In this document: one piece after another, positions 3,088-34,702 of the stretch | How positions within the stretch are numbered: the stretch's first letter is position 1 | Layout of the letters: each line of letters opens with the position of its first letter | Source: Geobacter sp. AOG1 | Lineage (GTDB): Bacteria > Desulfobacterota > Desulfuromonadia > Geobacterales > Geobacteraceae | Direction of reading: 5' to 3' | Assembly (NCBI RefSeq): GCF_019972315.1 | Contig: NZ_BLIZ01000001.1 | Location: 1,066,513 to 1,130,512, forward strand | DNA: 64,000 bases | Position numbers and translations under genes: made by a program | The notes under the pieces: model-generated | Told to the model about the DNA's origin: nothing | Seen by the model: the letters and a program-made list of their open reading frames with translations, nothing else | Databases searched by the model: none

Positions 3088-4068
3088 ATGAAAGCTGAAA
3101 CTAATCCTGGTATAGGTAGATATTCTGTAAGCTTGATTACACAAGGTGACCATAGATTCTATACCCTTTCTATGCCAAGCGATATTTTAGCTAAATCATG
3201 CTTTGTTTCCACCAGAGATGAAGATCCTCATCAAGGGTTCCAGCGGTTGCTTGATCCAAAGCGGGCAGCTGAAATAGCAACATATATTGATAACGGACTA
3301 GGTACAATTCCAACGTCAATTATTCTGTCTGCGCAACCTGAAGCTGAACTTAGTATTATCGGAAGAGGTAAGACCCTCGAATTTAAAATTACGCCAAAGT
3401 CCTTCCTTATCCTCGACGGACAACATCGTGTATATGGATTTTCATTAGCCAAGACAGCACTTAGGGTGCCAGTAGTAATCTATAATAATTTAAGCCGAAG
3501 GGATGAATCCCGCCTTTTTATTGATATAAATACGAGGCAACGTCCTGTCCCAAGTGAGTTATTGCTTGATATAAAAAAACTTGCAGAGTATGAAAACGAG
3601 AGCGAACAATTGATGAGAGAGTTGTTCGATATATTTAATACCGAACTGAATAGTCCATTGATTGGGAAATTAAGCCCATCGAGTAGAACAAGCGATAAAA
3701 TTACCAGAGTTACATTCAATACGGCCTTAAAGCCATTACTCCCACTATTCATTGATAAAGATGTTGATTATATATTTTCAGCACTTTCTGCTTATTTAGA
3801 AACATTCATATATGGTTTGAGAAGTATTAAAGTTGATAAGCAAGTAACAAATCCGTTCGTTTTTAGGGCAATATTACATGTATTTCCTGAAATAGTACAA
3901 AGAGTTAAGGATAGATTTGGCCCTGATTATAAAGCAGATAATTATTTAGAAGTTATGAGCTCAATGTTCCCTAAAATAAAATCATCATTGATAAGTAGTC
4001 CTGGTAGATCACATAAATCTCTTTCGGATCATTTTATCAAAGCATTCAAAACAGACTTTACTATATAA
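3088..4068 (+). CDS. DGQHR-domain protein (DndB-like superfamily)
   Basis: A 326-residue protein with the signature LDGQHRVYG at about residues 108-116, preceded by a block ending in SFLILDG and followed by FIDINTRQRPVP. This defines the DGQHR family, which includes DndB, the regulator of DNA phosphorothioation, and many defence-linked proteins of unknown activity. Start ATG has TATAGGAGGATTCA in front. It is much more AT-rich than its neighbours and is followed after three bases by a second AT-rich gene, so the two probably form one operon. No dndACDE partners are nearby, hence a phosphorothioation role is not supported here. Confidence 0.85.
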   Translation: MKAETNPGIGRYSVSLITQGDHRFYTLSMPSDILAKSCFVSTRDEDPHQGFQRLLDPKRAAEIATYIDNGLGTIPTSIILSAQPEAELSIIGRGKTLEFKITPKSFLILDGQHRVYGFSLAKTALRVPVVIYNNLSRRDESRLFIDINTRQRPVPSELLLDIKKLAEYENESEQLMRELFDIFNTELNSPLIGKLSPSSRTSDKITRVTFNTALKPLLPLFIDKDVDYIFSALSAYLETFIYGLRSIKVDKQVTNPFVFRAILHVFPEIVQRVKDRFGPDYKADNYLEVMSSMFPKIKSSLISSPGRSHKSLSDHFIKAFKTDFTI

Positions 4069-4071
4069 CCA

Positions 4072-5058
4072 ATGCCAGTATTTAGTAATTATATAAGACA
4101 ATTTTGGATGCCTGGTATAAATGAAATTTCTGGTAACCCCGAAATAAAATTGCAGGCTTGGTTTGCTTTGTCAAAATATCAGATATACAAACAAGTTGAA
4201 GCAACCTCTTTTGAATTAACTGTTTCGGAATTAAATCATCTTTTAAAAGCTTTTGCCTGTGATAGTAATAGAATGGCGATGGCTTCTTTTGAGACATTGC
4301 TAGGGATTACGAAGAGCGATTTTCTTCCAAAATCTACTGCGTGGTTTATAATCCAACTTTATTATTCTGCTTTTTATGCGGCGCATGCGATACTTCGGTT
4401 TACGGGAGTAAGTTGTACTCAATTAGAATCAAATGAAATATCAACTGTAGAAAAATTGGCGGATATTTACGGCGCGTTGCATAATGTTCACATTTCTAGT
4501 GGATTCTATAAGTGTCACTTTGAAGGCAACACAAGCGTTTTGCGATGTAGCAAGTTGGATTTTCCTCGGAGCGGCTCTAGTCACGAAAAAATGTGGAATG
4601 TATTTAGGTCACAAATGAGCATGATAAGTAATGAAATTTTATCTGGACAAGGTTTATCTACTGAAAAACAACTAGTGGCTACAAAAATATCAGAATTATG
4701 CCAAGCACTGGGAACTACGAATTCTAATTGGCTTTCGCATGTCAGAAACCTTACTACTTACAGGCATGAGTATGGTGTTTGGTTCCCGTATTCCAATTCA
4801 AAAAAATACTATGAACGTTTACATGATCTTGTTGATAAGTGGAAAGATGATCCTTTATCAATAAATATCTGGAGCAGCAGTGACAGAGAGCTTCAAAAAT
4901 TTACTGAGACTTGCACATTAATAATATCAATATGTCGTGATATGGTTATTGACATGTCTTCACGTTGTACTACTGGTAAATCATTTCACAAGTTAGGTAC
5001 ATTATCTCTTGTGAAACAGATTAATAGAAATAAACCCGATTTTAGTTTTAATTGTTGA
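4072..5058 (+). CDS. Unknown protein, possible HEPN-like fold
   Basis: A 328-residue AT-rich gene starting 3 bases after the DGQHR gene, without a clear ribosome-binding site of its own, suggesting translational coupling. I do not recognise a named family. Two stretches recall HEPN domains: LYYSAFYAAHAILRF around residues 98-112 (the Tyr/Phe-rich helix of MNT/HEPN-type proteins) and HVRNLTTYRHEYGVWFP, giving an R-X6-H arrangement at about residues 225-232 resembling the HEPN ribonuclease motif. If so it would be an RNase-like effector paired with the DGQHR protein. This is inference from short motifs only. Confidence 0.6.
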   Translation: MPVFSNYIRQFWMPGINEISGNPEIKLQAWFALSKYQIYKQVEATSFELTVSELNHLLKAFACDSNRMAMASFETLLGITKSDFLPKSTAWFIIQLYYSAFYAAHAILRFTGVSCTQLESNEISTVEKLADIYGALHNVHISSGFYKCHFEGNTSVLRCSKLDFPRSGSSHEKMWNVFRSQMSMISNEILSGQGLSTEKQLVATKISELCQALGTTNSNWLSHVRNLTTYRHEYGVWFPYSNSKKYYERLHDLVDKWKDDPLSINIWSSSDRELQKFTETCTLIISICRDMVIDMSSRCTTGKSFHKLGTLSLVKQINRNKPDFSFNC

Positions 5059-5103: not shown

Positions 5104-5126
5104 AAGGCGGCCAATCGGCCGCCTTT
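5104..5126. terminator. GGCGGCC palindrome copy 1
   Basis: Hairpin GGCGGCC-AATC-GGCCGCC with A/T flanks, in the convergent gap between the island and the qorB-like gene. It could terminate transcription from both sides. Confidence 0.75.
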
Positions 5127-24422: not shown

Positions 24423-24535
24423 GCTGTTTCCGGTGCTCCGCGTAAAAAGGTTGGCTTGATCTCCAGGATGTGCGATTCTTACCCCGGCCGGTGAAGAGAA
24501 GAATTCGCCGGGGAGTACCCGCGTCGGGAGAGAAT

Positions 24536-25990
24536 GTGAACGCAGTGCCGCAACTCTATGTACTGGATGGCTCCAGCTATATCTACCGTGCCTATTATGG
24601 CGTACGGGATCTCGCCACCTCCGGCGGTATGCCGACCAATGCCGTCTTCGGCTTCACCCGGTTGCTCCTCGGCCTCCTGCAGGAGAACCGTCCCGATTAC
24701 CTCGCCGTCGTGTTCGACCCTCCCCGGGAAGAGACCTTTCGCCGGGAGCTCTACCCCCCCTACAAGGCGCATCGGGACGCCATGCCCGCGGACCTCGTTT
24801 CCCAGCTGCCGTACATAAGGCAAATCTTGCAGGCCCTCAATATCCCGGCCCTGGAAGTCCCCGGCTTCGAGGCCGACGATGTCATCGCCACCCTGGCCCG
24901 CCGTTCTGCCGCAGAGGGTATGGAGGTCACGGTCGTTACCGGCGACAAGGACCTGCTGCAGATTGTCGGCGACGGGATCGGTCTGCTGGACACCATGAAG
25001 GAACTGCGGTCCGGCTCCCGGGAGGTCCTGGACCGCTTCGGTGTCCCACCGGAGCAGGTGCCCGATGTGCTGGGGCTGGCCGGCGATGTCTCGGACAATA
25101 TCCCGGGAGTTCCCGGGATCGGCGAGAAGACCGCTGCCGGACTGGTCCGGCGGTTCGGTTCCCTGGAAGGGGTGCTCGAGTGGAAAAGCCTGGTGAACGG
25201 CAAGCAGCGCCGGGAAAATCTGCACGTCCATGCCGACCAGGCCCGGCTCTCGAAAACCCTGGCCACCGTTCGCTATGACGTCCCCCTGGATCTGGACTTG
25301 GCCTCGCTGCAGCGCCGGACGCCGAACCTCCCGGAGCTGATGCCCCTTTTGCGGGAGTTGGAATTTTCGGCTCTGGAGCTCGCCTTCACCCCGCCACCCC
25401 CCGGCGTGGTGGAGATCTACTGCGACGGCTCGGGGAGGGACGCCGGTCCCGGGGGGTATGGGGTGATCCTGCGCTATGGGGAGTCCGAGAAGGAGCTGAG
25501 CGGGTTTGAGCCCGCCGCCACCTCGCAACGGATGGAACTGACGGCGGCGATCAGGGGACTGGAGGCGCTGCAGAAACGGTCGAGGGTGCGCGTCTTCAGC
25601 GATTCGCAGTACCTGGTCCGGGGGATGGGCGAATGGCTTGCGGGCTGGAAGCGCACCGGTCGCCTGGAGGAGCCGGACGCCCTCAAGAACCAGGACCTCT
25701 GGCAGCAGCTGGCAGCCCTCTCCGCCAACCATCAGGTCACCTGGGAATGGGTGCGTGGCCATGACGGGCATCCGTTCAACGAGCGCTGCGACAGGCTGGC
25801 AAAGCGGGCAGCAGAGGCGGGGGTGCGGACGACGGAGGAGAACGCGCGGGCGGCACGACAGGCGGAGGAACGGGAAAAGAAAGAGAGCGCCATCCCGAAG
25901 GCGACTGCCCCTGCCGGGCCGGCACCGGCTCGGATTATTGAGGAGACCGCATACGAGGCCGATGCCGACGGTCAGCTGCTGCTCTGTTGA
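24536..25990 (+). CDS. 5'-3' exonuclease fused to RNase HI
   Basis: A 484-residue two-enzyme fusion. Residues about 5-275 form a FEN/PolA-type 5'-3' exonuclease: YVLDGSSYIYRAYYG, FEADDVIATLA, VVTGDKDLLQIV, and the helix-hairpin-helix SDNIPGVPGIGEKTA. From about residue 290, a complete RNase HI follows: IYCDGSGRDAGPGGYG, RMELTAAIRGLEAL, VFSDSQYLVRGM and WVRGHDGHPFNERCDRLA, containing all four acidic catalytic residues and the flap histidine. A charged tail of about 50 residues ends the protein. Both activities remove RNA primers, so an Okazaki-fragment or R-loop role is inferred. GTG start at 24536 follows GGGAGAG. Confidence 0.93.
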   Translation: MNAVPQLYVLDGSSYIYRAYYGVRDLATSGGMPTNAVFGFTRLLLGLLQENRPDYLAVVFDPPREETFRRELYPPYKAHRDAMPADLVSQLPYIRQILQALNIPALEVPGFEADDVIATLARRSAAEGMEVTVVTGDKDLLQIVGDGIGLLDTMKELRSGSREVLDRFGVPPEQVPDVLGLAGDVSDNIPGVPGIGEKTAAGLVRRFGSLEGVLEWKSLVNGKQRRENLHVHADQARLSKTLATVRYDVPLDLDLASLQRRTPNLPELMPLLRELEFSALELAFTPPPPGVVEIYCDGSGRDAGPGGYGVILRYGESEKELSGFEPAATSQRMELTAAIRGLEALQKRSRVRVFSDSQYLVRGMGEWLAGWKRTGRLEEPDALKNQDLWQQLAALSANHQVTWEWVRGHDGHPFNERCDRLAKRAAEAGVRTTEENARAARQAEEREKKESAIPKATAPAGPAPARIIEETAYEADADGQLLLC

Positions 25991-26580: not shown

Positions 26581-26719
26581 CGGTGCTCCTCACTATGATG
26601 GAATTTGGATGCAGCGGCCGATATCCTAGCATTGAAAATCCACTGTCGTCAACGGCCGTGGTGGGCTGCGGGAGCATATCCCGGTTGCCCCAATGGACAA
26701 AAAAGATTATCCTGCTGGT

Positions 26720-27352
26720 ATGGCACATCGACATCACATACTTGCCCGTCGCTGCTGGATCTTCGACCTGGACGGCACGTTGACCCTGCCGGTGCACGAT
26801 TTTGCCGCCATCCGCGCAGAACTCGGCATGGCCGAATCCGACCCCGACATTATCCAGTTCCTTGCCTCCCTGCCGGCGGTCGAGGCCGCCGAAAAGCATG
26901 CCCGGCTGATCGAGATCGAGTATGAGCTTGCCGCCAGGACCGCCGCCGCACCCGGCGCCGGACGGCTGCTCGACCGGCTGCTCCGCCGCGGCTCGCAGGT
27001 CGGAATCCTCACCCGCAACACGCGGGAGATTGCGCTCCATACCTTGGACCAGATCGGCCTCAAGCAATACTTTCGCCCGGACGCGGTCCTCGGCCGGGAC
27101 GAGGCCGCGCCGAAACCCCATCCGGCGGGTATCGCCAAGCTGCTTGACGCCTGGGGGAGCGCTCCGGACGAGGCGGTGATGGTGGGGGACTACCTCTTCG
27201 ACCTCCAGGTGGGGCGCGCCGCCGGCACCGCCACCATCCATGTGGACCGCAGCGGCGCCTTCCGCTGGCCGGAACTTGCCGACCTGGCGGTGGCAAATCT
27301 TGAGGAGTTGGCCCAGGGGCTGACGGATGCCGTTCCCGTGCCGGCCTCCTGA
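26720..27352 (+). CDS. HAD-superfamily phosphatase (intact copy)
   Basis: A 210-residue HAD subfamily IA enzyme: motif I CWIFDLDGTLTLPVHDF, motif II VGILTRNTREIAL, the motif III lysine in APKPHPAGIAKLL, and motif IV MVGDYLFDLQVGRAAG. Substrate not identifiable. The ATG at 26720 is preferred over 26693 because a second, broken copy at 34182 conserves the sequence from about this point. The two copies lie on each side of the biosynthetic operon as direct repeats, including the following palindrome. Confidence 0.9.
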   Translation: MAHRHHILARRCWIFDLDGTLTLPVHDFAAIRAELGMAESDPDIIQFLASLPAVEAAEKHARLIEIEYELAARTAAAPGAGRLLDRLLRRGSQVGILTRNTREIALHTLDQIGLKQYFRPDAVLGRDEAAPKPHPAGIAKLLDAWGSAPDEAVMVGDYLFDLQVGRAAGTATIHVDRSGAFRWPELADLAVANLEELAQGLTDAVPVPAS

Positions 27353-27379: not shown

Positions 27380-27407
27380 AAAAGGCGGCCAATCGGCCGC
27401 CTTTTTT
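27380..27407. terminator. GGCGGCC palindrome copy 8
   Basis: AAAAGGCGGCC-AATC-GGCCGCC followed by six T. It and the 25 bases before it are duplicated almost exactly as copy 10, as part of the HAD-gene repeat. Confidence 0.85.
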
Positions 27408-27599: not shown

Positions 27600-29195
27600 A
27601 TGAGTCGGAAGCCTCGTACATTGACTTCAGGATTCATTCACTCGCGAGAGTATTTCGCGGAACGCCCCGCCCTTGAAGTGCAGGGGACACTTCTGACCTA
27701 CGGAAAACTTTATGAAAAGGCGGCCTCGCTTGCGGCAACGTTGCAGCAACAAGCACCCAGTCCCCAGTCTGACCTCACGGCTGTGTTCGCCTACCGCTCC
27801 GAAACGGCTTTTGTCGGCGTTTTGGCAGCCCTTTTCAGCGGCCACGGGTATGTCCCCTTAAACACGACCTTCCCGCCGGAACGGACGCGGCTTATGCTGC
27901 AGCGGTCCGGTTGCGGACGGATGATCGTCGACACCGAATCGGCACAGCAGTTCAACCAGATTCTGGAGGGGGTCAGTGAACCGCTCACCATCATCCTTCC
28001 TGAACGCAGGGATGTTGGCTTCCTGGCGGAGCAATTCCCGTTGCACAGGTTTTTGGGGGCAGATGACCTGGAACCTGCAGAGCGCTGGAGTCCTGTCGAG
28101 ATATCTCAGAATTCGCCGGCCTATGTGCTCTTCACTTCCGGTAGCACCGGCATTCCCAAGGGGGTCATGGTTTCACATCGCAATGTTCTCACGTTCATCG
28201 ATGCCATGGTCGAGCGTTACCGGATCAACGAGTATGACCGGTTTTCCCAGATGTTTGACATGACCTTCGATCTTTCGGTTTTCGACATGTTTGTCGCCTG
28301 GGAGCGGGGTGCATGTGTCTGCTGTCCATCGAAAAAACAGGCCATTATGCCCCAGAAGTACATTCAGGATTCGAAAATCACCGTATGGTTTTCCGTCCCC
28401 TCGACCGGAATTTTCATGAAAACACTGGGCATGCTCAAACCCAACTCATATCCCACGCTCCGGCTCAGTCTTTTTTGCGGAGAGGGACTGCCTGCATCAC
28501 TGGTTTCGGCATGGTGCGAAGCTGTCCCACAGTCTCTCATTGAAAACCTGTACGGCCCGACGGAACTGACCATTGCATGCACCCTTTACCGCTGGGACCG
28601 CCACAACTCTCCCGCCGAATGTGAAAATGGTCTGGTGCCTATCGGCCAGCCCTATCCTGCGATGTCGAAACTGGTGGTGAATGAGAACCTGGAGGAAGTC
28701 GAGCCGGGGGAAATCGGCGAACTGTTGATGACCGGCCCGCAGAGGAGCCTCGGTTACTGGCAGGACCCCGAGAAGACCGCGGCCGCTTTTGTGGTGCCAC
28801 CAGGCAAAAAGGATACCTACTATCGTACCGGTGACCGAGTGCGACGGCCGGTTGGCGATAAGCCGCTGATTTATCTGGGGCGGATGGATATGCAGATAAA
28901 GGTTCTCGGGCATCGGGTGGAACTTGGCGAGGTCGAGTCGGTGCTTCGCGAGGAGGCCGAGACCGATGTTGCAATTGTGCTGGGATGGCCGGTGACTGAA
29001 AGCGGGGCAAAGGGTGTGATCGGCTTTTTGAAAAAATCCCGTCGATCTGTTCAGGAAATCCTATCACGGGTCGAAAAAAGGTTGCCTGATTATATGGTTC
29101 CTAAGCAGGTTTACCTCGTGGAGAGCTTCCCTCTGAACAGTAACGGCAAGGTCGATCGCAAGACACTCATGAATCTCTTGGGGAGTCAGTCATGA
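27600..29195 (+). CDS. Stand-alone amino-acid adenylation enzyme (NRPS A-domain)
   Basis: A 531-residue ANL-superfamily enzyme with the core motifs of an NRPS adenylation domain: A3 at about residues 178-195 (LFTSGSTGIPKGV), A4 FDLSVFDMF with the Asp that pairs with an alpha-amino group, A5 NLYGPTELT, A7 YRTGDRVR, A8 GRMDMQIKVLGHRVELGEVE and A10 NSNGKVDR carrying the catalytic lysine near 517. It has no carrier or condensation domain, resembling DltA and similar loaders. It probably activates an amino acid as AMP ester and loads the carrier protein encoded next, whose ATG overlaps its stop. The exact amino acid cannot be read reliably by eye. Confidence 0.92.
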   Translation: MSRKPRTLTSGFIHSREYFAERPALEVQGTLLTYGKLYEKAASLAATLQQQAPSPQSDLTAVFAYRSETAFVGVLAALFSGHGYVPLNTTFPPERTRLMLQRSGCGRMIVDTESAQQFNQILEGVSEPLTIILPERRDVGFLAEQFPLHRFLGADDLEPAERWSPVEISQNSPAYVLFTSGSTGIPKGVMVSHRNVLTFIDAMVERYRINEYDRFSQMFDMTFDLSVFDMFVAWERGACVCCPSKKQAIMPQKYIQDSKITVWFSVPSTGIFMKTLGMLKPNSYPTLRLSLFCGEGLPASLVSAWCEAVPQSLIENLYGPTELTIACTLYRWDRHNSPAECENGLVPIGQPYPAMSKLVVNENLEEVEPGEIGELLMTGPQRSLGYWQDPEKTAAAFVVPPGKKDTYYRTGDRVRRPVGDKPLIYLGRMDMQIKVLGHRVELGEVESVLREEAETDVAIVLGWPVTESGAKGVIGFLKKSRRSVQEILSRVEKRLPDYMVPKQVYLVESFPLNSNGKVDRKTLMNLLGSQS

Positions 29196-29470
29196 ACCAT
29201 TTTTCAGCTGGCATGGTGCGGGAGTTTCTGCTTGATTTCGTCGAAGAGCGGCTAATGGTGTGTGGCATTTCTGCAGCGGAGGTCAACGACGACTTTGATC
29301 TCCTCGTCAGTGGGGTAATCGATTCCCTTGCGTTTCTGGAGATGACCGTAGTGCTGCAGGAGCAGTTTGAGGTGGAGCTTGATTTTGACGAAATTGACCC
29401 GGTGCAGCTTTCCATCGTTGGATCCCTTTGTCATTACGTCAGTTCGCTGAAACTGAAAGGTCTCGCGTAA
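29192..29470 (+). CDS. Acyl/peptidyl carrier protein
   Basis: A 92-residue carrier protein. The phosphopantetheine serine is Ser45 in VNDDFDLLVSGVIDSLAFLEM, followed by VVLQEQFEVELDFDEID, the expected helix II and III. ATGA overlap with the adenylation gene indicates a matched pair. A 4'-phosphopantetheinyl transferase would have to be encoded elsewhere. The 145 bases that follow hold no evident gene. Confidence 0.9.
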   Translation: MNHFSAGMVREFLLDFVEERLMVCGISAAEVNDDFDLLVSGVIDSLAFLEMTVVLQEQFEVELDFDEIDPVQLSIVGSLCHYVSSLKLKGLA

Positions 29471-29615
29471 ATGGCGGCAATCAAACGTTCACGGAATTGC
29501 CCACTCGAGATCTACCTGAAAGCAGGGACCGAGGGGAACCCAGAGTACTTTTCCAAGAGGCTGTCGTTTTGAAGATTCATAAAAAATAGTGCACGGAAAT
29601 GATGGAGGAGGGACC

Positions 29616-30539
29616 GTGATAAATCCCGAACTTTCCAGAATCGTCGCCACGCTGGAGGAACTTCCGTTTCCTACCCGCTTTGCGGTAGAGGTCTGCTCGG
29701 ATTGCAACCTGGAATGCATCATGTGTCATCATCCCAACATGCGCAGGCCGAAGGGGAGGATGCCGTTTGAATTGTGGAAAATCTGTGCCGATGAGATAGC
29801 GGCTCTTTCCCCCGAAACCCAGTGCTGGTTCTCGTTCATCGGAGATCCGTTTCTCGAGCCCGACCGGCTTTTGCAGATGATTCAGTATGGCAAAAGGGCG
29901 GGGCTCCGCTCTCTCAATGTAAACACCAACGGAATGCTAGTCAGACCTGAACTTTCCGATCGCATTCTCGATTCCGGCGTTGATCTCATCGTGTTCGGGA
30001 TCGACGGCTTTTACCGGGAAACCTATGAAAAGATACGCGTCAAAGGGAATCGGGATCTGCTCTATGCGAATGTCATGCACCTTCTGGTCGAGCGTCAAAA
30101 ACGTCATTATGGCCCCGAGATCCAGGTCCAGTTCATCGAAATGGCTGAGAATGAGAATGAACGGGACACGTTCGTGCAATACTGGTTGGAACGGGGTGCC
30201 ACGATAAAATTGCGCAACAAGCTGAGTTGGGGGGGGCAGTTTGAAACTTCACTGGAGATTCCGAAACAGGAGCGGATCCCCTGTCCCTGGGCCACGACCA
30301 TGATGCATGTGTATTGGGATGGCAGAATTCCCCGGTGCCCCGGCGACACAGAAGGGGAGGAGGGTGTGGGGAATGCCTGGGACGAACCGCTGTCCATCTT
30401 GTGGAGACGTCTCGGGCAGTATAGGAAAATACACCTTGAACAGCGCTTTGAGGAACTGCCGGATCGGTGCCGGGACTGTAAGGACTGGATGACAGGAGCT
30501 GCCGAGAGAATCAATCTCGTTTCGGTCAACGATAATTGA
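29616..30539 (+). CDS. Radical SAM/SPASM protein
   Basis: A 307-residue enzyme with the radical SAM cluster motif Cys30-X3-Cys34-X2-Cys37 in VEVCSDCNLECIMCHHPNM, and a C-terminal region (CPWATTMMHVYWDGRIPRCPGD, then CRDCKDW) with Cys spacing of a SPASM-type auxiliary cluster. GTG at 29616 follows GGAGGAGGGACC and is preferred over an upstream GTG. It probably modifies the operon's product or a carrier-bound intermediate through a radical step; the reaction is unknown. Confidence 0.88.
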   Translation: MINPELSRIVATLEELPFPTRFAVEVCSDCNLECIMCHHPNMRRPKGRMPFELWKICADEIAALSPETQCWFSFIGDPFLEPDRLLQMIQYGKRAGLRSLNVNTNGMLVRPELSDRILDSGVDLIVFGIDGFYRETYEKIRVKGNRDLLYANVMHLLVERQKRHYGPEIQVQFIEMAENENERDTFVQYWLERGATIKLRNKLSWGGQFETSLEIPKQERIPCPWATTMMHVYWDGRIPRCPGDTEGEEGVGNAWDEPLSILWRRLGQYRKIHLEQRFEELPDRCRDCKDWMTGAAERINLVSVNDN

Positions 30540-30550
30540 ATTGGGAAACG

Positions 30551-31312
30551 ATGGAACAGGTCAGGAAAACACTGTATCTCTGCGGTGCCGGAAACCTTGA
30601 GGGCGTACGATTGGCACTCACGGTCAACATGGATCAGCAGCGCTGGGATCGAATAGTCCTATTGGACGATGATCCGAACAAGCAGGGGAAATCAGTCCTC
30701 GGTGTGGAGATTGTCGGGCCCTTTTCCGTGCTGGACGATGTCGATGCGGGCTCTGCGGAAATCGTCAACCTAATCACACGAAGTGCGGTGAGACGGTGGC
30801 TGGCCTGGGGTAAGCTCAAACAGTACGGTCTTCCCTTTGCCACTCTGATCCACCCGAATGCCGATACCTATGGTGCGGAACTTGGCGAAGGGGTTACGGT
30901 CTACCAGAATTCAATTGTCGGCCCGGCGGTTGTTGTGGGTGACGGGTCGGTAGTCATGGTGGGAGCTGTGGCGGGGCATGGATCCCTTCTGGGCAAGTGC
31001 TGTATCCTGGCCCCGAATGCGGTTGCCAATTCGAGGGTTAAACTCGGGGACGGAACCTATGTGGGGACGAACGCGGCGATCATGCCCGAGGTGAAAGTGG
31101 GGGAGTGGTCAACCATTGGCGCCTGCTCCGCGGTCATTTGCGACGTTCCGGCAGGGACTACGGTCATGGGGGTTCCCGCAAAAACAGTCATGACGCTCAA
31201 ACAAAAACTCGCATCTGAAAAGGACGAAACACTTCCTCCCGACATACGCAACGAATTGAACGTTCAACTTGAACGTGGCCCGGCACACGTATCGATAAAG
31301 GGTATACATTGA
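30551..31312 (+). CDS. NeuD/PglD-like acyltransferase
   Basis: A 253-residue protein with an N-terminal Rossmann-like domain (KTLYLCGAGNLEGVRLAL) and a C-terminal left-handed beta-helix of hexapeptide repeats (GDGSVVMVGAVAGHGSLLGKCCILAPNAV onward), ending ICDVPAGTTVMGVPAKTV. This is the NeuD/PglD design, which acetylates nucleotide-amino-sugars or similar amines. Its sequence is clearly paralogous to residues 1-210 of the fusion at 32330. A TTG start at 30536, overlapping the upstream stop, is possible, but ATG at 30551 matches the paralogue better. Confidence 0.85.
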   Translation: MEQVRKTLYLCGAGNLEGVRLALTVNMDQQRWDRIVLLDDDPNKQGKSVLGVEIVGPFSVLDDVDAGSAEIVNLITRSAVRRWLAWGKLKQYGLPFATLIHPNADTYGAELGEGVTVYQNSIVGPAVVVGDGSVVMVGAVAGHGSLLGKCCILAPNAVANSRVKLGDGTYVGTNAAIMPEVKVGEWSTIGACSAVICDVPAGTTVMGVPAKTVMTLKQKLASEKDETLPPDIRNELNVQLERGPAHVSIKGIH

Positions 31313-32271
31313 AAACAATCGTCGTCATAGGCAATGGAAGTATGGCGGTTGATTGCCTGAAAATCATGAAGATGCATCGGCAAGCTCATGTTGCATTGGT
31401 CATTGCCGATCCCCAAGATATATCGCTGATGTTTTTGCGACACTATTGCAAAGCAGAAGCTCTCGATCTCGAACTTAGCAGTAATGTCAATTCTGCAGAG
31501 ATTGTTGAGAAAATCAAAGCTATTGGTCCGCACATACTATTCAACATCAACAGTTTTCAAATTATCAGGGAGGAATTGATCGCAATTCCGCGTGAAGGGA
31601 TAATCAACTTCCATAATGGCCCTTTACCCAGGTACAGGGGGATAAATGTCTGCTCCTGGGCAATCATGAACGGCGAAAAAAGGTACGGAGTTACCTGGCA
31701 TTTTGCGGAGAAGGCCATAGATTCGGGAGATATTGTCGCTCAAGCATGTTTCGATATCTCTGAAACCGAGACAGCCTTCAGCTTGATCGTAAAATGCATC
31801 AAGGAAGGTACCGCGCTTTTTGAGCGGTTTTTACCGGTTGTTCTTGAGGGGAACATTCCAAGAATAAGGCAGGATCAAACCCTGGCGAGTCACTATACCA
31901 GGAGAGATATTCCCAATGATGGGTTTGTCGATTACAGCTGGAATTTCGATGCGTTCGATCGCTTTGTAAGGGGGCTCAGGTTCAGCCCGATCCACAACAG
32001 TTTTGTACATCCAAAATCAATAGTGAATTCAAGGGCCTTTTTTATTCACACTATATCAAGGTGCAAAGAATCCGTTCCCGAAACAGTGGCGCCCGGAAGG
32101 ATTTTCGGGCTTTGCAAAAGCGGGATTGACGTAAAAATAAATAATAATGCCATACGTATCACGGAGGTTCTGAACGATACGATGAAGCCGATTCGTATGG
32201 GTAGTTTTATTGAAACATACAACCTTGAAGTCGGCAGTCAGATGCAGCCATGTGGACGTGCCTCATATTGA
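31309..32271 (+). CDS. Formyltransferase, NRPS/sugar type
   Basis: A 320-residue protein with the N-terminal formyltransferase domain. The catalytic Asn-X-His and Asp are in INFHNGPLPRYRGINVCSWAIMNG (His102) and AIDSGDIVAQ (Asp141). The segment PLPRYRG followed by GVTWHF is nearer to formylation domains of NRPS systems and amino-sugar formyltransferases than to methionyl-tRNA formyltransferase. It would N-formylate an amine using 10-formyl-tetrahydrofolate. TTG start overlaps the previous stop (TTGA). It is more AT-rich than its neighbours. Confidence 0.87.
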   Translation: MKTIVVIGNGSMAVDCLKIMKMHRQAHVALVIADPQDISLMFLRHYCKAEALDLELSSNVNSAEIVEKIKAIGPHILFNINSFQIIREELIAIPREGIINFHNGPLPRYRGINVCSWAIMNGEKRYGVTWHFAEKAIDSGDIVAQACFDISETETAFSLIVKCIKEGTALFERFLPVVLEGNIPRIRQDQTLASHYTRRDIPNDGFVDYSWNFDAFDRFVRGLRFSPIHNSFVHPKSIVNSRAFFIHTISRCKESVPETVAPGRIFGLCKSGIDVKINNNAIRITEVLNDTMKPIRMGSFIETYNLEVGSQMQPCGRASY

Positions 32272-32329
32272 TCTGTTGAATCTTCAATCCCATTGATTCA
32301 TTGACGCGAATTGAAGGTGGAGAGACCCT

Positions 32330-34078
32330 GTGAAAACGCTTTACCTTTGCGGTGCCGGGAACCCGGAAGGTGTGAGGCTGGCGCTTACGGTCAACAGTGT
32401 TCATAAGCGCTGGGACCGGATTGTCATTCTCGATGATGATGTCTCCAAGCATGGCCAGCAGATTCTAGGCATTGAGATCGCCGGGGCATTTTCTCTTCTT
32501 CAGGACGCGAACCCCGCTACCGCTGAAGTTTCGAATATGGTGGCCCGTACGGCGACGGGTCGCCAGGTGGCATACCACAAGATCGAGCAGTACGGAGTGC
32601 CCTTTGCAACCCTCATCGCTCCGGACGTGGATATTCAGGGGGTTGATCTGGGCAGCAATATTACCGTCTACCGAAATTCCCTGTTTTGCGCGAACGCTAC
32701 CGTGGGCGATGGGTCCATCATTTTCGCCGGTGCAATAATTGGTCATGGTTGCCGTCTGGGAAAGGGGTGCATTGTCGCCCCAGGCGCTGTGATTAACGCC
32801 CGGGTTGAACTTGGCGACGGTGTGTATGTCGGAACAAACGCCTCTATCATGCCGGAATTGAAAATTGGCCATGGATCGGTCATCGGCGCAAACTCTGCGG
32901 TTGTTCAGGATGTCCCTGCAGGGGCGTCGGTCATGGGGGTTCCGGCGCAGATTCTGATGCAGAGAGTGGAAACTCCAGCAACTCATCAGCATTCAGATCA
33001 GGAAGCCTTTGAATTGCCCTCGACGGAGATTGAGCGGAAACTCGCCGCGCTCTGGATGAAGATCCTGAACGTTAAGCGTGTCGGCCGTAATGACGACTTT
33101 TTCCTGTTAGGAGGCACGTCGATCGATGCGGTCAACCTCTTCGTGGAGATAGAACAGGCGTTTCAGGTGAGACTTCCTCTCCCGATTCTGCTTCAGGCCC
33201 CCACACTCAGGCAATTGACGAGCTTCATTCAGGAGGGTGTGCAGAAACCTGACTGGTCGTCACTGGTTCCCATCAGAGAAGGAGGGGACAGGCCTCCCCT
33301 CTTCCTGGTTCATGGCGCTGAAGGAAACATATTGCTGTACCGAGAATTGACCAATTATCTCGGAGAGGATCAGCCGGTGTACGGTTTGCAGTCCCAGGGG
33401 CTGGACGGAAGCGGACGTCTTCTGGCTACCGTTGAAGAGATGGCATCTTGTTATGTTCGAGAAATAAGGGGTCTCCAGTCAAAGGGCCCCTATTTTCTGG
33501 GAGGCTATTGTCTTGGGGGAATCATTGCCCTCGAAATGGCGCAACAGCTAAGAGCGGAGGGAGAGGAGGTCGCTCTCGTCGGGATGATCGAAACCTACAA
33601 CGTTCACTTCAATCCAACGCCCCGATCTCATCTCGTGTCTCTTGTTCACCTGCTGCAGAATGTGGGGTATCATCTGGGGAATCTTCTCTCTCTTGGGATG
33701 TCGGATCGGTTGAGGTTCCTGAAAAAGAAGTTGTCCGTTGAGAAGGGGAGACTCGCACTTCGATTCGCCTCGTGGGGAAGGAAGGGGGAGGAGAGGATGC
33801 CGTACCCCCATTTGGCCGTAACAGAAGCGAATGAACAGGCGGCAACGGAATATATTCCGAGGGAGTATTCAGGCCGGGTGGTGGTGTTCCGGCCCAAAGT
33901 CCATTTTCTGGGACAGAATGATGCCACGTTTGGATGGGGCGAGGTAGTTCGCGAAGGCCTTTCCGTGTGTAGTCTGCCAATCTATCCTAAAGCCATGCTC
34001 GTTGAGCCATTTGTGCAGAGTTTGGCGGAAGAAATCAATCGTTACCTGGGGCAGGCATTAACTAGCGCGGAACAATAG
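32330..34078 (+). CDS. NeuD-like acyltransferase / carrier protein / thioesterase fusion
   Basis: A 582-residue three-part protein. Residues 1-210: Rossmann plus left-handed beta-helix acyltransferase, highly similar to the product of 30551. Residues about 228-305: carrier domain with the phosphopantetheine site GGTSIDAVNLF (Ser264). Residues about 320-575: type I alpha/beta-hydrolase thioesterase, LFLVHGAEGNILLYREL and LGGYCLGGIIALEMAQ, where the nucleophile elbow has Cys394 in place of the usual Ser. GTG start follows GAAGGTGGAGAG. It would release or transfer the finished acyl or aminoacyl group. I know no standard family with this order; the fusion probably arose from a duplicate of the upstream gene. 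Confidence 0.88.
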   Translation: MKTLYLCGAGNPEGVRLALTVNSVHKRWDRIVILDDDVSKHGQQILGIEIAGAFSLLQDANPATAEVSNMVARTATGRQVAYHKIEQYGVPFATLIAPDVDIQGVDLGSNITVYRNSLFCANATVGDGSIIFAGAIIGHGCRLGKGCIVAPGAVINARVELGDGVYVGTNASIMPELKIGHGSVIGANSAVVQDVPAGASVMGVPAQILMQRVETPATHQHSDQEAFELPSTEIERKLAALWMKILNVKRVGRNDDFFLLGGTSIDAVNLFVEIEQAFQVRLPLPILLQAPTLRQLTSFIQEGVQKPDWSSLVPIREGGDRPPLFLVHGAEGNILLYRELTNYLGEDQPVYGLQSQGLDGSGRLLATVEEMASCYVREIRGLQSKGPYFLGGYCLGGIIALEMAQQLRAEGEEVALVGMIETYNVHFNPTPRSHLVSLVHLLQNVGYHLGNLLSLGMSDRLRFLKKKLSVEKGRLALRFASWGRKGEERMPYPHLAVTEANEQAATEYIPREYSGRVVVFRPKVHFLGQNDATFGWGEVVREGLSVCSLPIYPKAMLVEPFVQSLAEEINRYLGQALTSAEQ

Positions 34079-34127
34079 GGTGTTCAGAAAATTCTCGGCA
34101 CAACAGGGGGCACCATTCCTGATTCAG

Positions 34128-34149
34128 AAGGCGGCCAATCGGCCGCCTT
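34128..34149. terminator. GGCGGCC palindrome copy 9
   Basis: GAAGGCGGCC-AATC-GGCCGCCTTC, preceded by GGGGGCACCATTCCTGATTC. It closes the operon. Confidence 0.8.
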
Positions 34150-34181
34150 CGTCGTTCCCATATAAAGTCTATCCTGTTCCT

Positions 34182-34646
34182 ATGGCATCTCACCACCACA
34201 TACTAGACCGTCGCTGCTGGATCTTCGACCTGGACGGCACGTTGACCCTGCCGGTGCACGATTTTGCCACCATCCGCGCAGAACTCGGCATGGCCGAATC
34301 CGACCCCGACATTATCCAGTTCCTTGCCTCCCTGCCGGCGGTCGAGGCCGTGAAAAAGCATGCCCGGCTGTTCGAGATCGAGTATGAACTGGTCGCCAGG
34401 ACCGCCGCCGCGCCGAAACCCCATCCGGCGGGGATCGCCAAGCTGCTCGACGCCTGGAGGAGCGCACCGGATGATGGTGGGGGACTACCTCTTCGACCTC
34501 CAGGTGGGGCGCGCCGCCGGCACCGCCACCATCCATGTGGACCGCAGCGGCGCCTTCCGCTGGCGGAACTTGCCGACCTGGCGGCGGCAAATCTTGAGGA
34601 GTTGGCCCAGGGGTTGACGGATGCCGTTCCCGTGCCGGCCTCCTGA
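34182..34646 (+). pseudogene. Decayed second copy of the HAD phosphatase gene
   Basis: Nearly identical to 26720-27352 but damaged. A 159-base deletion removes 53 codons including motif II (the ILTRNTRE stretch) between two GCCGC words; an 8-base deletion shifts the frame before the motif IV Asp, and a one-base deletion further on restores it. A long frame remains open but cannot make an active HAD enzyme. Homology runs on through the shared 3' flank and palindrome copy 10. Confidence 0.93.
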
Positions 34647-34673
34647 CCCCAGTCGATGCACATGGACTAATTC

Positions 34674-34702
34674 AAAAGGCGGCCAATCGGCCGCCTTTTT
34701 TT
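34674..34702. terminator. GGCGGCC palindrome copy 10
   Basis: Duplicate of copy 8 with the same upstream 25 bases (GATGCACATGGACTAATTC), following the HAD pseudogene. Confidence 0.85.

Follow-up and report, generated by a model that had tools for sequence, protein, structure and literature searches.

A six-gene operon of Geobacter sp. AOG1 that combines an adenylation and carrier-protein kit with a BtrN-like radical SAM enzyme and NeuD-like acyltransferases

We analyzed a group of six genes in a 64,000-nucleotide stretch of the Geobacter sp. AOG1 genome (contig NZ_BLIZ01000001.1, positions 1,066,513 to 1,130,512 of the forward strand; this whole stretch is called the window, and positions are counted from its first letter). 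Our best reading is that the genes form a recently assembled pathway making a (formyl)glycyl-carrier thioester, the acyl group of which would then be moved to an amine. The first-pass annotation, made from the sequence alone, had described a six-gene carrier-protein operon with overlapping or close genes on one strand. Coordinates and Pfam searches bear this out: all six open reading frames (ORFs) lie on the + strand at 27600-34078, and the families given below exceed the Pfam cut-offs.

27600..29195, + strand: stand-alone adenylation enzyme, 531 amino acids (aa), pocket DLFFLCLIAK (Pfam AMP-binding, 3.8e-65, and C-terminal domain)
29192..29470, + strand: stand-alone carrier protein, 92 aa, Ser45 as phosphopantetheine site (PP-binding, 4.4e-6)
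29589..30539, + strand: BtrN-like radical SAM twitch enzyme, 316 aa (Pfam Radical_SAM and SPASM; 12-sequence profile)
30536..31312, + strand: NeuD-like hexapeptide acyltransferase, 258 aa, His148 (Hexapep; NeuD_NnaD E 3e-42, under the cut-off)
31309..32271, + strand: formyltransferase, 320 aa, N100/H102/D138 (Formyl_trans_N, 1.6e-21, and Formyl_trans_C; ten-row tree)
32330..34078, + strand: fusion of NeuD (His139), carrier (Ser264) and thioesterase-like (GYCLGG at 392, Pro553) domains, 582 aa (Pfam Hexapep, PP-binding, Thioesterase)

Three gene junctions, that of the adenylation and carrier genes included, are overlaps of 4 bases and the remaining gaps measure 118 and 58 bases; the six genes are arranged like a single transcription unit. 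The family active-site motifs are kept in the adenylation enzyme, both carriers, both NeuD domains and the formyltransferase. The functional meaning of these residues is known from the families, and solved relatives of the adenylation enzyme, NeuD and the formyltransferase align over them. The condensation domain that marks a nonribosomal peptide synthetase (NRPS) is absent from the Pfam matches of the six proteins, as had been noted before, and there is no transporter or regulator among the six genes. NCBIfam results for these proteins are those among the matches listed.

The pocket of the adenylation enzyme (D224, L225, C293 and K517 among its residues) was read by motif anchors. At 7 of 10 positions it matches that of IdnL7 (6akd), DCFFLALITK, which was read via the alignment of its Solidesulfovibrio relative. 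The three differing positions are the IdnL7 selectivity residues, given as C217, A285 and T318 (PMC11253843), and the window enzyme has Leu, Cys and Ala there. The literature on AlmE, a glycine enzyme, names L248 and C316 and equates L248 with DltA L198; in DltA, C269 faces the methyl group of D-alanine. The pocket Leu and Cys of the window enzyme are 68 residues apart, which is the spacing of AlmE L248 and C316, and the Asp, Leu and Cys pocket combined with a separate carrier (29192) is that of an AlmE/DltA-type carrier ligase. The role assigned to this enzyme in the first-pass annotation, loading of an amino acid on the carrier, is supported. Judged from the pocket, glycine would be our first guess for the activated amino acid, at even odds, and D-alanine our second.

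The pattern D-L-x-F-L-C-x-I-A-K is found in four of five other adenylation enzymes, those of Solidesulfovibrio magneticus, Azospirillum argentinense, Phaeobacter sp. G2 and Agrobacterium salinitolerans; three of these adjoin a small carrier gene and the Phaeobacter enzyme is fused to a carrier domain. The fifth (L047), from the Planctomycetota genome that also holds locus L040 described below, reads DLLYLALV-K. Three of the enzymes (H46, H48, H53) were chosen for reading from the best 8 of 2171 records of a plasmid search, and the Agrobacterium enzyme was reached via the formyltransferase, so the shared pocket of the plasmid enzymes is partly expected, as they were chosen as best matches. Searches with the adenylation, carrier and formyltransferase genes covered one Planctomycetota genome and the plasmid collection. 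On the S. magneticus plasmid (L054:7992-11562), the adenylation gene (pocket DLHFLCLIAK) is one of four consecutive genes, the others encoding a carrier, a protein that matches no Pfam family and an AAC(3)-type acyltransferase.

In a ten-row tree the window formyltransferase pairs with the Agrobacterium enzyme (95/95). These two cluster, at 99/97, with five domains embedded in NRPS or MupA/Atu3671 proteins; ArnA and two enzymes of glycan loci fall outside that clade. The Agrobacterium row and the two glycan-locus rows are long branches and possibly misplaced, and LgrA was left out of the tree. An enzyme acting on an amine had been proposed for this gene, and its clustering with NRPS-embedded enzymes makes formylation on the carrier the probable role. 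Elsewhere in the Planctomycetota genome of L040, a large protein (L048:3471-8180) matches formyltransferase, adenylation and carrier families and in this resembles the MupA/Atu3671 type.

The third protein had been labeled a SPASM enzyme, and it does match Pfam SPASM at 25.3 bits (cut-off 21.5). According to PMC6231123, SPASM is a seven-Cys C-terminal motif binding two auxiliary clusters. The window protein has the radical SAM motif CX3CX2C at Cys 39/43/46 and only four Cys after the core (232, 250, 294, 297), and all of these residues are conserved throughout an alignment of 12 relatives. Because only four Cys follow the core, the enzyme is, by its cysteine pattern, a BtrN-like twitch protein (four auxiliary-cluster Cys) and not a seven-Cys SPASM protein, and the earlier label has to be dropped. 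A profile of the 12 relatives gave BtrN as top PDB match (4m7t, E 9e-21), with core and twitch aligned and Cys on Cys; in a single-sequence search BtrN (E 5e-4) came behind the cytosylglucuronate decarboxylase BlsE (7e-5). We infer that the four aligned Cys are counterparts of the BtrN cluster ligands, and a two-electron oxidation is a fairly likely reaction for the enzyme.

Hexapeptide repeats and the active-site His are present in both NeuD domains (His148 and His139). They match NeuD_NnaD of NCBIfam with E values of 3e-42 and 1.5e-37 (144.5 and 129.2 bits, both under the curated cut-off of 160.8), and their closest solved relatives in the PDB are sugar acetyltransferases. The stand-alone NeuD and the N-terminus of the fusion share 57-58% identity, and the two domains are therefore paralogues. 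In the thioesterase-like domain of the fusion the Ser-His-Asp triad of type I thioesterases is incomplete: the nucleophile motif at 392 is GYCLGG, with Cys for Ser, and Pro553 takes the place of the catalytic His. Both substitutions are common to the window domain and its two relatives in genome G428 (41-46% identical); all four further relatives in the alignment retain Ser and His. Being present in three domains, the changes are not decay of one gene. A Cys alone is compatible with activity, as 4zxh (GGWCFGG) retains the His. The combined change of Ser to Cys and His to Pro makes ordinary hydrolytic release doubtful, and the release step ascribed earlier to this domain is not supported. The G428 relatives lie in a cluster of NRPS and polyketide synthase (PKS) type (L036/L037), both of whose thioesterase-like domains have the Cys and Pro changes. 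A PKS of an Aminobacter plasmid was considered as a relative of the NeuD-carrier-thioesterase fusion and rejected, its Pfam architecture being DH-ACP-TE.

Among the samples searched, the six-gene set was seen only in its own genome. The same holds for the full-length fusion among 297 genomes of the phylum (E 1e-40) and for NeuD among 277 genomes of the class (E 1e-30); among 395 phylum genomes at E 1e-35, NeuD was found in its own genome and in G262. The radical SAM gene has matches at 1e-10 in 51 of 141 genomes of the order, where only G134 (37%) passes 1e-60 beyond its own, and 21 of 297 phylum genomes including its own pass 1e-28, the best six others being 36-38% identical. Three scans of viral contigs gave no relative. 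A pattern scan of an 84,980-species collection returned one NeuD relative, in a Planctomycetota metagenome-assembled genome (L040); the scan used two patterns and is insensitive, since the G882 homologue reads RTLYLCGA and would escape the pattern KTLYLCGA. In Planctomycetota, NeuD matches occur in 2 of 324 genomes and radical SAM matches in 3 of 246, with only G562, the L040 genome, above 38%.

At L040 a radical SAM protein 66.6% identical to that of the window is followed by a NeuD-carrier fusion, and an equal pair (radical SAM 65.7% identical) is found in a second Planctomycetota genome (L053, G882). The window, L040 and L053 radical SAM proteins form one clade (support 100/100). A NeuD gene lies directly 3' of the radical SAM gene in these three genomes, 3/3 of those with a >60% identical radical SAM protein; the count is biased because it was NeuD searches that led to L040 and L053. 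Despite the bias, the unit that travels together is, on these gene contexts, radical SAM plus NeuD(-carrier). A second sub-unit was found on the Agrobacterium salinitolerans plasmid pAtCFBP5507a (L068), where adenylation, carrier and formyltransferase genes are consecutive. Upstream of this row lie an acyl-CoA-dehydrogenase-like gene and one annotated as an alpha/beta hydrolase. In the window operon, such an adenylation/carrier/formyltransferase kit seems to have been joined to a radical SAM and NeuD-carrier pair. Lack of co-conservation elsewhere, which the first-pass annotation named as evidence against its reading, is half borne out: the complete set was seen in no other genome of the samples searched, but the two sub-units recur.

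Nine loci with radical SAM relatives of lower identity (33-38%) were inspected, several of them on short contigs (L013, L028-L033, L049, L050). Homology searches detected WbqC in 7/9 (L013, L028-L032, L049), an asparagine-synthase-like gene in 6/9 and a formyltransferase adjoining the radical SAM gene in 2/9 (L013, L031); L033 and L050 gave none of the three. Most of these loci are surrounded by glycosyltransferase, epimerase or sialic-acid-type genes (by sequence reading; one glycosyltransferase was checked). The BtrN-like radical SAM, WbqC and asparagine-synthase-like families may be functionally linked. The next-closest NeuD in the phylum (G262, 34.5%) adjoins a DegT aminotransferase gene, near epimerase and nucleotidyltransferase genes. 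Because of these contexts an amino-sugar acceptor is favored, though unproven.

The operon is bracketed by two copies of a gene of the HAD family, and copies of an inverted repeat lie on both sides:

26693..27352, + strand: intact gene of a HAD-family phosphatase, left member of the bracketing repeat pair (Pfam HAD_2, 2.9e-21; direct repeat with 34164-34701)
27380..27405, + strand: terminator-like hairpin 5' of the operon, containing the copy of AAGGCGGCCAATCGGCCGCCTT at 27382 (hairpin scan)
34128..34149, + strand: equal inverted repeat just 3' of the operon, without T run (repeat search)
34164..34701, + strand: degraded second HAD copy, right bracket (repeat blocks 87-100% identical; ORF 34080-34646 has no Pfam match)

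Terminator-like hairpins are overall no more frequent than in shuffled sequence (9 found vs 8.2 expected). The inverted repeat AAGGCGGCCAATCGGCCGCCTT has exact copies at 5104, 7421, 24400, 27382, 34128 and 34676, all in one orientation; these six are the only exact copies in the 3.68-Mb genome and are confined to this 30-kb stretch. With up to 2 mismatches, 13 sites were found in the window vs 0 in shuffles. In the three congeners the exact copies number 3, 5 and 2. A single match to the HAD gene, sharing 90-91% identity with the left flank, occurs in each congener (3/3). None of the three carries the operon: all lack a NeuD match at E 1e-30, and their sole radical SAM match, in G024, is 29% identical (E 3e-14). 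In G024 the HAD gene continues straight into the sequence found right of the operon in the window; in G025 and G026 the match ends near the end of the HAD gene. Integration of a HAD-bearing circle by a single crossover would produce this picture, and the HAD locus may be an integration hotspot, because the sequence downstream of it is not the same in the window as in the three congeners. By GC content at third codon positions (GC3) the operon shows no sign of foreign origin (0.49-0.64 vs a mean of 0.66, sd 0.14, in 38 other window ORFs, which were called mechanically and some of which are surely not genes). From its absence in the congeners and the bracketing repeat we concluded that the operon was probably acquired horizontally. 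Elsewhere in the window, two adjacent ORFs at 3088-5058 have a very low GC3 of 0.27-0.28, and a protein encoded at 24470-25990 unites a 5'-3' exonuclease of Pol I type with an RNase H domain.

By analogy, the operon would work like AlmE/DltA loading joined to butirosin-type chemistry, as a member of neither system. It shares with AlmE-AlmF (lipopolysaccharide glycylation) and DltA-DltC (teichoic acid D-alanylation) a stand-alone adenylation enzyme, the Asp/Leu/Cys pocket and a small carrier; unlike in those systems, its proteins fall under the NCBIfam DltA and DltC cut-offs, and a formyltransferase, a radical SAM enzyme and NeuD are added. AlmG, DltB, DltD or an acyltransferase of another fold is not among the Pfam matches of the six proteins; the rest of the genome was not searched for these. 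Butirosin BtrN has its counterpart in the twitch radical SAM enzyme with a four-Cys auxiliary cluster, and only this homology was tested. In butirosin biosynthesis an amino-acid chain borne on an acyl carrier protein (ACP) is protected at its amine and then transferred to an amino sugar amine; the likeness here is by analogy, and the butirosin ligase and transferase families differ from those of the window. With the sugar N-acetyltransferases NeuD, PglD, PerB and VioB, the closest solved structures, the window domains share hexapeptide repeats and the active-site His; they differ in the fusion of one copy to a carrier and a thioesterase-like domain, in the N-terminal loop GAGN(L/P)EG and in falling under the NeuD_NnaD cut-off. 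The formyltransferase shares its clade with the MupA/Atu3671-type and two other NRPS-embedded enzymes (LgrA being outside the tree), and unlike the LgrA and MupA/Atu3671 types it is a separate protein, unfused to adenylation or carrier domains. The pAtCFBP5507a row has the same adenylation (DLHFLCLIAK there), carrier and formyltransferase genes; it carries the acyl-CoA-dehydrogenase-like and hydrolase genes in place of radical SAM, NeuD and thioesterase, the window has radical SAM and NeuD between carrier and formyltransferase, and the adenylation enzymes are only 31% identical. To our knowledge, the pAtCFBP5507a operon has not been characterized. The earlier statement that no described system has this combination of enzymes agrees with the open-access literature searched, where no description was found; most subscription papers lie outside that coverage.

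We infer every substrate, the order of the steps and the product of the pathway from the observed gene content, families, conserved residues, recurring sub-units and absence from congeners. In the scheme that we prefer, to which we give a probability of roughly 0.45 as a whole (glycine loading, carrier formylation, carrier-coupled NeuD transfer to an amine, radical two-electron oxidation), the adenylation enzyme would activate glycine, or else D-alanine, and load it on the carrier; the formyltransferase would N-formylate the aminoacyl group on the carrier, either to protect it or because the formyl group belongs to the product. The NeuD transferase that is linked to a carrier domain of its own would pass the acyl group from carrier to amine, likely that of an amino sugar or a similar compound, and the BtrN-like enzyme would carry out a two-electron oxidation of either the acceptor or the bound acyl group. 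The Cys/Pro thioesterase-like domain, not an ordinary hydrolase, may bind, transfer or proof-read the acyl chain. A more specific version, rather unlikely in our estimate, has the twitch enzyme oxidizing the carrier-tethered (formyl)glycyl group before the Cys-type thioesterase-like domain and NeuD hand it over to the amine; this would define a new carrier-coupled class of NeuD, with the Planctomycetota pair as minimal form.

Several observations weigh against the preferred scheme. The best PDB match of the adenylation enzyme is LgrA (2e-103), ahead of IdnL7 (6akd, 3e-82) and AlmE (4oxi, 1.8e-78); it scores 252 and 267.3 bits where the NCBIfam DltA models have cut-offs of 559.85 and 476, and its pocket comes from motif alignment and not from a structure. 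The carrier-acting assignment of the formyltransferase is not firm, because ArnA (E 8e-22) outscores LgrA (5e-5) in a single-sequence PDB search. Fold and function are poorly predictable from similarity within this radical SAM subfamily, according to PMC6231123, and an AlphaFold model of the radical SAM protein built from two sequences was too poor to be used (predicted local distance difference test, pLDDT, 45; predicted TM-score, pTM, 0.43). There are no sugar genes within the operon, an amino sugar as acceptor is an even bet drawn from gene contexts, and the 16 DegT-family matches of the genome (seven strong) say little, because the family is present in 14/14 control genomes. The L040 and L053 stretches gave no adenylation, formyltransferase or thioesterase match, so the radical SAM/NeuD role and the remaining roles may be separable, and the bias of the 3/3 count has been mentioned.

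The lack of sugar genes in the island would also suit a free small natural product, in which a carrier-bound amino acid is oxidized on the carrier, formylated, perhaps N-acylated and released without any sugar. The accompanying acyl-CoA-dehydrogenase-like and alpha/beta hydrolase genes of the Agrobacterium row point the same way, as do both Planctomycetota loci, where radical SAM lies beside NeuD-carrier and searches of the stretches gave no gene for WbqC, an asparagine-synthase-like protein or a formyltransferase. Such a product is unlikely in our judgment: the thioesterase-like domain has lost the catalytic Ser and His, the six genes include no transporter or regulator, and the nearest solved NeuD relatives act on sugars as acetyltransferases.

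Formyltransferase and radical SAM enzyme could instead both modify an amino sugar, with adenylation enzyme and carrier giving an aminoacyl group to the same sugar. ArnA as best PDB match of the formyltransferase, and the adjoining formyltransferases at L013 and L031 (2/9), are in line with this idea, which we hold to be quite improbable, since the tree parts the window enzyme from ArnA and from the L013 and L031 enzymes (99/97; the latter two are long branches). Least probable to us is a young mosaic without joint function, in which the radical SAM and NeuD-carrier pair and the adenylation/carrier/formyltransferase kit were joined by chance and are drifting. It would account for a set confined to one genome among the samples searched, for the bracketing HAD duplication and for the GC content of the formyltransferase gene (0.445 vs 0.51-0.56 in the other five); against it stand six intact frames on one strand with three 4-base overlaps, and active-site motifs kept in 5/6 proteins and in 2/3 domains of the sixth.

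Read as a carrier-coupled transfer pathway, the operon is a small test case for two questions: whether aminoacyl groups on carrier proteins can be used directly by hexapeptide sugar acyltransferases, and whether BtrN-like enzymes act on carrier-bound substrates. The Planctomycetota two-gene unit would be the minimal version of such a system, and the Agrobacterium row suggests that the adenylation-carrier-formyltransferase part is shared between pathways.

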